From assembly GCF_001700515.1 (NCBI RefSeq), contig NZ_MAUD01000081.1:1-64000 (forward strand): a stretch of DNA of 64,000 bases, given 5' to 3'. The DNA is from Streptomyces lushanensis. GTDB lineage: Bacteria > Actinomycetota > Actinomycetes > Streptomycetales > Streptomycetaceae. This document shows, one piece after another, positions 27,026-55,457 of this stretch; position 1 is the stretch's first letter; every line of letters begins with the position of its first letter. Both the position numbers and the translations under genes were made by a program. Below the pieces are notes generated by a model. It had not been told where the DNA came from. It worked only from the letters and a program-made list of their open reading frames with translations, and did no database searches.

Positions 27026-27364
27026 CCAGTGTCGCCCGGACTCGGAAAGCGTCCGTGCACCGTGTGGCCGGCGTCAGGCCTCGCGCTCGTTGTTGCCCGG
27101 GCTCCGATCGGTCACGCAGCCGTTCCCATGCGTTGCGAGGCGGTGCCCTCAACACCTCCAAGCTGAACTCTGCGCGCTCGAGTCGGCGGAATGCTCCAAC
27201 TGTGGCGAGCGGCCACGATGGTGGTCCGGCTTGCCAACCAACCTGCGTTACTTTTGCCAACTACGAAGCGTCACAACCTTCTGACCAGGAAGTCCGGCAC
27301 CTCCATTTGCCAACTGTGCCGCGTCGTCACACGCCGCAGGCATCGACCGTGACCGTGATGCAGC

Positions 27365-27499
27365 ATCGCCGGCCTCACCCTGCCCTGGAGCTCAGGCGTC
27401 GTCGAAGGCCACGTCAACCGGATCAAGATGCTCACACGCCAGATGTTCGGCCGCGCCGGCTTTCGCCTCCTCCGCAAGCGCGTCCTGCTCTACTCGTGA
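27365..27499 (+). pseudogene. ISL3-family transposase, C-terminal remnant
   Basis: The frame reads IAGLTLPWSSGVVEGHVNRI and then KMLTRQMFGRAGFRLLRKRVLLYS and TGA, the characteristic C-terminus of ISL3-family transposases (WSNGxxEGxxNRIKxxKRxxFGRAGFxLLRxRVL). Upstream sequence is scrambled, so only the last 45 codons survive. An ISL3-like terminal sequence lies about 1 kb downstream at 28441-28499. Confidence 0.7.
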
Positions 27500-27619
27500 A
27501 CCGCAGGTCAGACCGTTGTGGGCAGCCAGTTGGATTTCCCCCTCCCCGGCCGTCTGATGAGGAACCAACTGGCCACGGGACCGGTGACGGTCAACGACTT
27601 GGTTCGCGCTCGTCATCCA

Positions 27620-28351
27620 TCATGTTCCGCGGGTTCCCGCGACGGCCGGACCGAGATCGGTGGGGAGGTGGCGCACTGCCAGGGCGACGGCTTCCTCGGC
27701 TGTGGCGGCCTCGCCGAGAACATCATCGGAGAGCGGATGCCTCTTCACGCGGAAAGGGCTGTCACTGTGTGACGGGACGATGGCCACCTCATCGCGGAAC
27801 GGGTATCCAGTGCAGGAGCTGAAGCCGAGCGTCCAGTGGCTGGAGAATACATAGAGCTGTCGCAACCGTGGTTCTGCATGAGCCGCTTGCACGAGTTCGC
27901 CGAACCCCGTGAAATCCGGTTCCCTGGCCGCCTGCTCCCGCATTGTGCGCCACTGCAGCTCCACCACCGCGGCCGGCCCGCGTTCGTGAGCTTCGGCGCG
28001 CTTGCTGGAGCGCAGAAACGACAGCTCCGCCCGCAGCTCCTGCAGGCTCCTGCCCTGCCCCCATGCCGCTCCAGCCCTGACGACATCCGCCAGGTCGAGC
28101 GTGGCCCCGGTGATGAGTTCGACTCCGTGACTCCACCCGGAGACACCGAACCAGCGGCTCTCCGCCCCGATGTGAACGGATAGCGGCCTGCGCTCAGGGA
28201 CCGACGAGGCGATGCCCGCCGAAACGAGTGGGCCCCAATCGCCGGCTACCACCGTGAGATCGGCACCGAGTTCGGCCGCCAGCAGTTCCAGCGCTGCGCC
28301 CAGGCCGCCTGCAGCAGCCAGATCAGGGTAAAGGTCGGAGTCCACCTTCAT
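27620..28351 (-). CDS. DUF6193 family protein
   Basis: 243 residues from ATG 28351 (alternative in-frame start at 28414). It contains LYPDLAAAGGLGAALELLAA, EAHERGPAAVVELQWRTMRE and LYVFSSHWTLGFSSCTGYPF, which I recognise as the DUF6193 family (sometimes labelled natural-product-biosynthesis protein, without proof). No catalytic motif is identifiable. The C-terminus (RHPLSDDVLGEAATAEEAVA) is typical. It lies between an ISL3 transposase tail and an ISL3-like end, reading away from that end, as the passenger gene does in the cassette at 54245-54689. Confidence 0.7.
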   Translation of the reverse strand: MKVDSDLYPDLAAAGGLGAALELLAAELGADLTVVAGDWGPLVSAGIASSVPERRPLSVHIGAESRWFGVSGWSHGVELITGATLDLADVVRAGAAWGQGRSLQELRAELSFLRSSKRAEAHERGPAAVVELQWRTMREQAAREPDFTGFGELVQAAHAEPRLRQLYVFSSHWTLGFSSCTGYPFRDEVAIVPSHSDSPFRVKRHPLSDDVLGEAATAEEAVALAVRHLPTDLGPAVAGTRGT

Positions 28352-28440
28352 AGTCTGCCGTCGCGACGCCACCAAGAAAACGGCGATCAGACGTCGCAGC
28401 GAGGCCGTGGGCACGTGACTCCGACTGTCCGTTGCTCACG

Positions 28441-28499
28441 GCCAGGGGAGCCATTGACATCACACTCAGTCAGCCCTCCACGGAAAATGAGTCAGAACC
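28441..28499 (-). repeat. ISL3-like terminal sequence, solitary
   Basis: Read from 28499 leftward, the sequence begins GGTTCTGACTCATTTTCCGT and continues GGAGGGCTGACTGAGTGTGA. The left end of the cassette at 54245 begins GGTTCTGGCACACATTCCGT and continues GATGGGCTGACTGACCGTGA. About 39 of the first 50 positions agree, including the inner block GGGCTGACTGA, so both are ends of the same IS family. No matching second end was found nearby. Confidence 0.6.
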
Positions 28500-54114: not shown

Positions 54115-54244
54115 CAAGCAAGATCGGGAAGTGACTGCGCGCGGCCCGATCGGCGCCGAATCATGCCTATGAAGAGGCTGTGGAGCGTCAGCAGCATCCC
54201 CCGACGGCTCGTCGCTGGTGTGGTTGGCTTTATTCACGAGTAGT

Positions 54245-54689
54245 GGTTCTGGCACACATTCCGTGATGGGCTGACTGACCGTGATGTCAGCGGTGTGTGG
54301 TGGGATGGCCGGGCTCTTCGTTGATCTGCTGGGAGACCGTGTTGATGCCAGTGTTCCCGTCTTTGACCCGTGCCCTGACCGAGGCTCTGGTCGATGTCTT
54401 GTGGTTCATCGAAGGCAGTGAAGACGAGCAGATGGATCCGGACGACGCCGTCAAGGTGCTGGACGGCGTAGCCCACCTGGTCAGCAAGTTGTCGAGTGAC
54501 CAGCGGGGCGAGTTGATCGACCTGCTCGGGACAATGGCCGAAGCAGAGACCGATCCAGCTCGGCGCGAGTTCCTGAGAGCGTTCCCGGAGGGTTTCGGGC
54601 TCTTGGAGGATGCGGCCTGACCTGTGCTCCGTTCACGTCCTTCGACAGCGCGTCACTCACCGCGCCGGATCACGGAATGTGTGCCAGAA
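54245..54689. mobile_element. Mobile insertion cassette: 23-bp TIRs, 8-bp target duplication, one passenger gene, no transposase
   Basis: Perfect 23-bp terminal inverted repeats (54245-54267 and 54667-54689; first 20 bases GGTTCTGGCACACATTCCGT) bound a 445-bp segment. The 8-bp CGAGTAGT directly repeats on both sides (54237-54244 and 54690-54697), a textbook target-site duplication. The only gene inside is the 91-codon ORF 54345-54620. TIR sequence and 8-bp duplication fit ISL3-family transposition in trans. A related end lies at 28441-28499. Confidence 0.85.
54345..54620 (+). CDS. Small acidic protein, passenger of the mobile cassette
   Basis: 91 residues; GGGAG precedes the ATG by nine bases. 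Sequence: VFPSLTRALTEALVDVLWFI, EGSEDEQMDPDDAVKVLDGV and AHLVSKLSSDQRGELIDLLG. It is strongly acidic and all-helical, with no Cys and no membrane segment. I do not recognise a family; the shape resembles small actinomycete accessory proteins and could suit an antitoxin, anti-restriction or DNA-mimic protein, but nothing proves this. It is the sole cargo of the TIR-bounded cassette and reads away from the left TIR. Confidence 0.6.
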   Translation: MPVFPSLTRALTEALVDVLWFIEGSEDEQMDPDDAVKVLDGVAHLVSKLSSDQRGELIDLLGTMAEAETDPARREFLRAFPEGFGLLEDAA

Positions 54690-54823
54690 CCCGAGTAGTG
54701 CCGTCGGTTGTTCACGGGTTTGGGAGGCACCCAGATCCACGGTCGGGTGATGTTCACGAGTTTTGACAGCATCGGGGTACTTGCCAGGGCAGCATCGGGA
54801 TGCTTCTGGTGAAAGGCCCTGGT

Positions 54824-54905
54824 CATGCCGCAGATGTCGAAGGTCGAGCTGTACGCGGCGATCCGGCGTGATCACCGTGCCGGTATGAAGATGCGTGAGC
54901 TGGGC
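54824..54905 (+). pseudogene. istA: IS21-family transposase N-terminal relic
   Basis: The frame MPQMSKVELYAAIRRDHRAG followed by MKMREL is the usual HTH-bearing beginning of IS21 IstA proteins. It stops matching after MREL near 54903, where IS110-type sequence begins. Upstream (54740-54770) the segment GATGTTCACGAGTTTTGACA may be part of the IS21 left end. A matching istB relic lies 1.25 kb downstream. Confidence 0.6.
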
Positions 54906-54907
54906 TC

Positions 54908-55457
54908 ACCAACCTCAGCTGGTTGAAGATGCCCTTGGCAGGCAGATGCTCGCCCTCCTGCTTCAGCTGGAAGCCGCCTCCAAGGCTGCCGACGACCTCG
55001 AAGAGGCGGGGGATGAAGCGTTCCCTGAGCACCCGGATGCTGAGATCATCCTCAGCTTTCCCGGCCTCGGCATCCAGCTCGGCGCCCGGGTGCTCGCCGA
55101 GATCGGAGACGACCGCCAGCGCTTCGCAGACGCCCGCGGTCTGAAGGCATACGCCGGCGCCTCACCCATCACCCGCGCCTCAGGCAAAAAATCGAGCGTC
55201 ACCCGGCGGTGGGTGAAAACGACCGACTGAACCACGTCGGCTATCTCTGGGCCTTCTCCGCCCCTAACGCCTCGCCTGGAGCCAAAATGCACTACCGCAG
55301 GCGTCGCGACGATCACGGAGACTGGCACGCATCCGCCCAGCGCAACCTCTTCAATCGCCTGCTCGGACAGCTCTACCACTGTCTCCAGCACGGCCGCCGA
55401 TTCGACGAAGCCGTGGCTTTTCCTGCCCCAGTCTCTGCGGTCGCGCGGGTGGCCTGA
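54908..55457 (+). pseudogene. IS110-family transposase, C-terminal part, frameshifted
   Basis: The frame gives LVEDALGRQMLALLLQLEAA, then IILSFPGLGIQLGARVLAEI, GDDRQRFADARGLKAYAGAS and RASGKKSSVTRRWVK. This is the RuvC/Tnp-like C-terminal region of IS110/IS116 transposases, including the G(L/I)G helix-hairpin element. At the A run near 55216-55219 one base is missing and homology continues in another frame as NDRLNHVGYLWAFSAPNASP and NLFNRLLGQLYHCLQHGRRF to the stop at 55457. The N-terminal catalytic half is absent, so it cannot transpose. Confidence 0.75.

Follow-up and report, generated by a model that had tools for sequence, protein, structure and literature searches.

A transposase-less ISL3-type insertion cassette in Streptomyces lushanensis and its putative orphan immunity gene

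A short segment of the Streptomyces lushanensis genome has the outline of an insertion sequence (IS) and holds one small gene in place of a transposase; it raises the questions of how such an element came to its present site and what its gene does for the host. The window analysed is the whole 64,000-nucleotide stretch at positions 1 to 64,000 of contig NZ_MAUD01000081.1, and the parts of the element are collected in Table 1. The element proper (54245-54691) measures 447 bp and is laid out as a 23-bp end, 401 bp and the inverted end. The two inverted repeats agree at 23/23 bases, with similarity ending at the repeat boundary, and an identical copy of CGAGTAGT stands on either side, so that the perfect 23-bp inverted repeats and perfect 8-bp direct repeats described in the sequence-only reading are both borne out; its span of 54237-54697 was right at the left edge and wrong at the right, where the duplication ends 2 bp further on, at 54699. 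At three or fewer mismatches the end occurs at two places only in the window (0.00 in shuffled windows). The leader between the left end and the gene has a purine-rich GGGAG stretch ahead of the ATG, and a promoter scan gave 0 matches to a sigma-70-type promoter in it; columns average 84% identity across 11 aligned leaders (repeat included), the leader being conserved along with the ends. Elsewhere in the window, at 27055-28499, lies a second, decayed ISL3-like relic. Its 45 bp at 28455-28499 match the focal left end and leader (82%), a DUF6193 gene occupies 27620-28414 on the reverse strand, and the frame 27055-27822 resembles, by eye, a shifted ISL3 transposase C-terminus.

Table 1. Parts of the focal element and its target duplications, in window coordinates
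Feature	Position	Strand	Remark
Target duplication, left copy, 8 bp, CGAGTAGT	54237..54244		single copy at the unoccupied site L249
Left terminal inverted repeat, 23 bp, GGTTCTGGCACACATTCCGTGAT	54245..54267	+	
Leader, end to gene	54268..54344	+	conserved in cargo-bearing ISL3 elements
Cargo gene, 91 aa	54345..54620	+	predicted four-helix acidic protein of a toxin-linked family
Short stretch	54621..54668		site of the convergent ISL3 transposase gene in full-length relatives
Right terminal inverted repeat, 23 bp	54669..54691	-	
Target duplication, right copy, 8 bp, CGAGTAGT	54692..54699		

The ends and the 8-bp duplication are features that the element has in common with the ISL3 family. In the focal genome (7.54 Mb in 732 contigs) there is one further pair of the end, at G000:C260:42142-44351, where the first 22 bp of the left inverted repeat form both ends of a 2210-bp copy with the duplication GAGAAGTA on either side. 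This copy contains a DUF4240 gene and an ISL3 transposase gene split by a frameshift into two overlapping frames of 232 and 371 aa, besides which DDE_Tnp_ISL3 had no match elsewhere in the focal genome. The same end borders elements with intact ISL3 transposases in two other Streptomyces (L055, the same as L084, and L104), and the DDE_Tnp_ISL3 domain of the relatives scored above the cut-off. A DUF4259 gene and an ISL3-like right end adjoin the DUF4240-bearing copy (L040, G000:C260:41620-44351), apparently as two neighbouring elements. Within its 447 bp the focal element has no ISL3 transposase; it is a non-autonomous relative rather than an IS, and with inverted ends around a passenger gene it is almost certainly an ISL3-type mobile insertion cassette, as had been proposed from the letters of the DNA.

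Throughout the genus the end, at three or fewer mismatches, was found in at least 142 of 392 genomes, the reversed-pattern control of the same search reaching six genomes among the matches listed; in a set of named genomes, exact ends are present in 34 stretches, of which 32 are from Streptomyces, one from an Actinomycetota MAG and one from a Pseudonocardia MAG. From 100 end pairs in the fetched loci, 28 distinct elements of 141 bp to 3.2 kb with matching ends and an 8-bp duplication (one mismatch at most) were recovered, a set made up of loci picked for ends or cargo and not a random sample; shifting the flanks by 10, 20 and 30 bp as a control gave 0/300 duplications. At least 334 transposase residues were matched in 15 of the 28, two retain a transposase fragment (892 and 1153 bp), seven carry an ORF without any transposase residue (447, 809, 859, 948, 1011, 1577 and 3016 bp, the ORF of the 859-bp element being doubtful) and four are 141-142 bp long. 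These shortest elements (L059, L057, L108 and L274) are MITE-like: they combine ISL3-type ends with 8-bp duplications and lack any ORF that reaches 70 aa. Comparison of cargo between copies, which the sequence-only reading had suggested, brought to light SMI1/KNR4 (SUKH), DUF4259, DUF4240, HIT and SnoaL proteins as passengers, together with several that belong to no known family. A transposase accompanies the SUKH gene in L041 and L083 and is missing in L093, as would be expected of cassettes; among the passengers this gene alone matches an immunity family in Pfam (PF09346).

An unoccupied target is present in genome G023 (L249), which reads TGGCTTTATTCA-CGAGTAGT-GCCGTC, with one CGAGTAGT and no insert, and continues as the focal right flank, to which it is 93% identical along 210 bp. 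It represents a repeated target elsewhere and not the orthologous locus, the left-flank match covering only the 12 bp before the duplication. It is the only insert-free site among 61 genomes, in which no exact empty locus was found in near relatives, the gene of the left flank and the right flank lying apart. The sequence-only reading would have been refuted by a lack of other copies and by empty sites in relatives without the flanking-repeat pattern; other copies exist, as does this unoccupied target with a single CGAGTAGT, so that the refutation fails. A chance origin of the inverted and direct repeats is vanishingly improbable in the face of the shuffled windows, the flank-shift control and this unoccupied target. 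The 28 joined sites have a loose context in common, with TTCA preceding the duplication and G(A)CAGC following it, and the focal site fits it; five other occurrences in relatives are intergenic repeats. Three other genomes (G020, G001 and G004; loci L250, L253 and L254) have an ISL3-like right terminus (…CCAGARC, last bases only) at the same position ahead of the repeated target, a possible insertion hot spot. The right flank itself (54694-55230) is a stack of broken IS, its start, to about 54901, resembling the IS21 istA of L249 and an IS110-type Transposase_20 fragment following at 54895-55227. The idea that ISL3 targets IS21 was dropped, since the start of IS21 istA lies behind just 2/28 sites, the focal one included.

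Homologues of the cargo were detected in 101/392 genomes of the genus (E <= 0.001) and in 27 plasmid records. At 40 loci (L145-L184) the homologue is close, with 57-82% identity to the cargo over the aligned part, and an ISL3-type left end lies 92-105 bp 5' of the gene at 24/40 of these, versus 1/20 of the distant homologues, the single distant case being itself a broken close copy. Where a transposase is present, it is convergent and ends near the stop of the cargo. Full cargo-bearing elements with perfect duplications are exemplified by L166 (2132 bp) and L169 (2272 bp), and a plasmid of Streptomyces sp. NBC_01520 (L370) holds an intact 2109-bp element with the duplication ATTTCTCG on either side, in which the cargo is annotated as a 'hypothetical protein' and the transposase as ISL3, the latter being confirmed here. 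In L368 (a Streptomyces avidinii plasmid, NZ_CP108618.1) a SUKH-3 gene lies between the cargo-bearing ISL3 copy and the right end, and an abortive-infection-family gene is found just outside the element. The cargo frame is intact at 38/40 close loci, three of which also have an intact transposase frame, and at 21/38 the 3.5 kb downstream contain no transposase residue, a count that is partly due to ascertainment because these loci were found via the cargo. It may be argued that the cargo serves the ISL3 element in transposition, as an accessory or a regulator, and is not an immunity protein, as its place beside the transposase is fixed (stop codons 8 bp apart in L368-L370) and it is found with several transposase groups. 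We consider this improbable: in many ISL3 elements that have such ends and an intact transposase, a different gene, or none of the cargo family, occupies that place, the cargo is retained without a transposase at the 21 loci just mentioned, and homologues sit behind toxins, as described below.

The focal copy resembles one full element (L181) until about 8 bp past the stop codon of the cargo, and because similarity ends there it looks like a form from which the transposase has been lost. The loss could have occurred in place, in an element that had moved at full length, and the cassette would then be a dead deletion remnant; the extent of this similarity and an assembly without an intact cognate transposase are consistent with such an origin, which is a real possibility although we hold it to be less than probable. 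Against such an origin, its perfect ends do not differ from each other, and duplications also flank other elements that lack a transposase, 141-142 bp (4/28) or 0.8-3 kb long, which suggests that the ends alone suffice for movement. We infer that the present 447-bp form was moved in trans, which is likelier than not, although the sole ISL3 transposase found in the focal genome is frameshifted. The cassette would be descended from, or assembled like, a full ISL3 element with the order left end, ~100-bp leader, cargo gene, convergent ISL3 transposase and right end, from which the transposase was presumably lost while the cargo and both ends were kept. The ISL3 transposase of a related copy in the same cell may have recognised the end and moved the cassette, and insertion into a preferred target would have given the 8-bp duplication.

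The cargo is the one plausible gene of the element, with 91 codons from the ATG at 54345 to the stop codon at 54618-54620, and its product is acidic (pI 4.08, net charge -13.4), in agreement with the single gene for a 91-residue acidic protein first noticed. An alternative upstream GTG start in the mechanical ORF list would give 107 aa; the homologues fit the 91-aa start. The gene is under purifying selection, with dN/dS of 0.09-0.45 between the focal copy and 38 relatives and a median of 0.27 over 733 usable of 741 pairs from 39 cargo sequences. The AlphaFold2 model has four helices (pLDDT 88.9) and gave no Foldseek match at E <= 0.001; the best of the further candidates was human NF1, with a Z of 7.3, a level common for helical models. 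A colicin-immunity-like fold was considered and set aside, there being no immunity protein among the Foldseek candidates listed, a result that excludes nothing. The family has no Pfam, NCBIfam, PADLOC or PDB match, the focal protein matched 0 families at E <= 0.05, those of Imm and SUKH type included, no Imm model was among the matches listed for 46 scanned members of the family, and a search of 50,697 phage records with the cargo returned no match.

The sequence-only reading spoke of a single unknown gene likely to confer a selectable or selfish benefit. This can be put more precisely, in that the gene belongs to a family linked to RHS toxins, whatever benefit it may bring. At distant homologues an RHS-repeat ORF of more than 1270 aa ends where the homologue starts, and two of these RHS proteins contain RHS repeats, a PT-HINT domain and a Tox-REase-5-like end domain, the toxin ends matching Tox-REase-5 (Pfam PF15648) at 16.3 and 17.9 bits, below the cut-off of 25. 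A survey from the cargo side found an intact toxin end overlapping the start of the homologue at eight loci (L200, L203, L204, L208, L209, L213, L225 and L233) and a broken toxin end at three (L206, L210 and L220). The converse search, which used a profile built from six toxin ends and scored the best 11 candidates per genome, identified 15 places in 14/392 genomes; a cargo-family match follows at 15/15, although the cargo profile had itself included 11 of these homologues. The toxin and cargo-family matches are no more than 22 bp apart at 14/15; in G221 the cargo-family copy 3 bp behind the toxin is weak, and a strong copy follows about 315 bp further along. Independently of the profiles the linkage holds in 5/5 cases (G157:C91, G266, G221, G244 and a plasmid of the alphaproteobacterium Paracoccus albus), the Paracoccus plasmid having a toxin remnant, 8 bp and then a family member (E 1.8e-23). 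Toxin-linked members mostly share overlapping stop/start codons with the toxin, and the toxin domain is basic (pI 9.7) versus a cargo pI of 4.1. The combination of an acidic immunity protein with a basic toxin end is common for nuclease-immunity pairs.

Several observations weigh against an immunity role. The focal copy, unlike these homologues, does not lie directly behind a toxin gene, and its cargo is only 28-41% identical to the toxin-linked members. Among the best 11 candidates scored, the focal genome yielded no toxin domain, and no toxin was seen beside the close homologues at the 40 loci. In a first tree most of the toxin-linked members, eleven rows, form a clade of their own (support 97/88); in a larger tree with five more toxin-linked rows the label needs four changes (bootstrap 3-4), some of these rows falling near the mobile clade, in a tree that is weak, with few columns and long branches. 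This scatter is suggestive of an old toxin linkage within the family. Also against the immunity reading is the occurrence of the family in contexts other than toxins: L197, L198, L199 and L202 (one of them scanned) are fusions of its domain with a mycothiol-dependent enzyme domain of TIGR03083 type, and in L195, L215 and L221 a homologue adjoins a phosphoglyceromutase-like gene. These contexts, and a standalone clade of homologues without ends (L186-L195), would also suit a small cytoplasmic adaptor of an ordinary kind that ISL3 had captured, with the toxin linkage as a side branch of the family. We regard such an adaptor as unlikely, though less so than a transposition accessory, since a family member stands behind every toxin found, in two phyla, and toxin-linked members occur in several places on the larger, weak tree. 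That all passengers are immunity genes was considered and rejected: for two other passenger types, the 193-aa passenger (homologues at 26 loci) and the DUF4259 passenger (30 loci), frames read by eye gave no toxin directly upstream.

With a leader of its own and no accompanying toxin, the mobile copy is most likely an orphan immunity gene. We propose, as a reading of genomic context that is somewhat better than evenly supported, that the cargo works as an orphan immunity protein, and that it would bind and block a nuclease toxin, itself putative, from competitors or kin. The best reading of the locus as a whole, and one we find fairly plausible, is a transposase-less ISL3 cassette carrying an orphan immunity gene. 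More tentatively, ISL3 elements and transposase-less cassettes could be a genus-wide vehicle that spreads orphan immunity to RHS nucleases under its own leader and outside the toxin operon. If this is true, interbacterial immunity can circulate as resistance genes do, borne by an element of IS size and without the toxin; a widespread 'hypothetical protein' gains a name and a testable role, and the toxin and its immunity protein make up a pair without a described family in the libraries searched.

No account of an ISL3-borne immunity gene was found in the literature searched; mobile insertion cassettes and IS with passenger genes are known. The mobile insertion cassettes covered in the relevant passages of PMC3913671 include MIC231 of Bacillus cereus, mic-qnrD and mic-qnrS2; they resemble the focal element in having two inverted ends, a passenger instead of a transposase, a duplication and a full IS with the same ends. 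The focal ends, however, are of ISL3 type with an 8-bp duplication, the passengers described there are an endopeptidase and resistance genes whereas ours belongs to a toxin-linked family (PMC3913671), and movement of the focal cassette in trans is putative. Transporter IS, defined in part of PMC3129680 as IS with passenger genes, are comparable to L166, L169 and L370, each of which holds one passenger beside the transposase, which the focal copy lacks. Polymorphic toxins of the Tox-REase-5 type are paired with the immunity protein Imm52 in the section of PMC3482391 that deals with them; the RHS/HINT toxin ends linked to our family have the invariant FDG, K, Q and W of that group, but DRK in place of EAK and a Pfam match below the cut-off, and Imm52 is alpha+beta by its description there, whereas the cargo family is predicted to be all-helical and is without an Imm model match. 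The acquired interbacterial defence clusters of Bacteroidales, as portrayed in PMC10470768, likewise place orphan immunity genes on mobile DNA; there the genes travel as clusters, whereas in Streptomyces a single gene would travel on an element the size of an IS.
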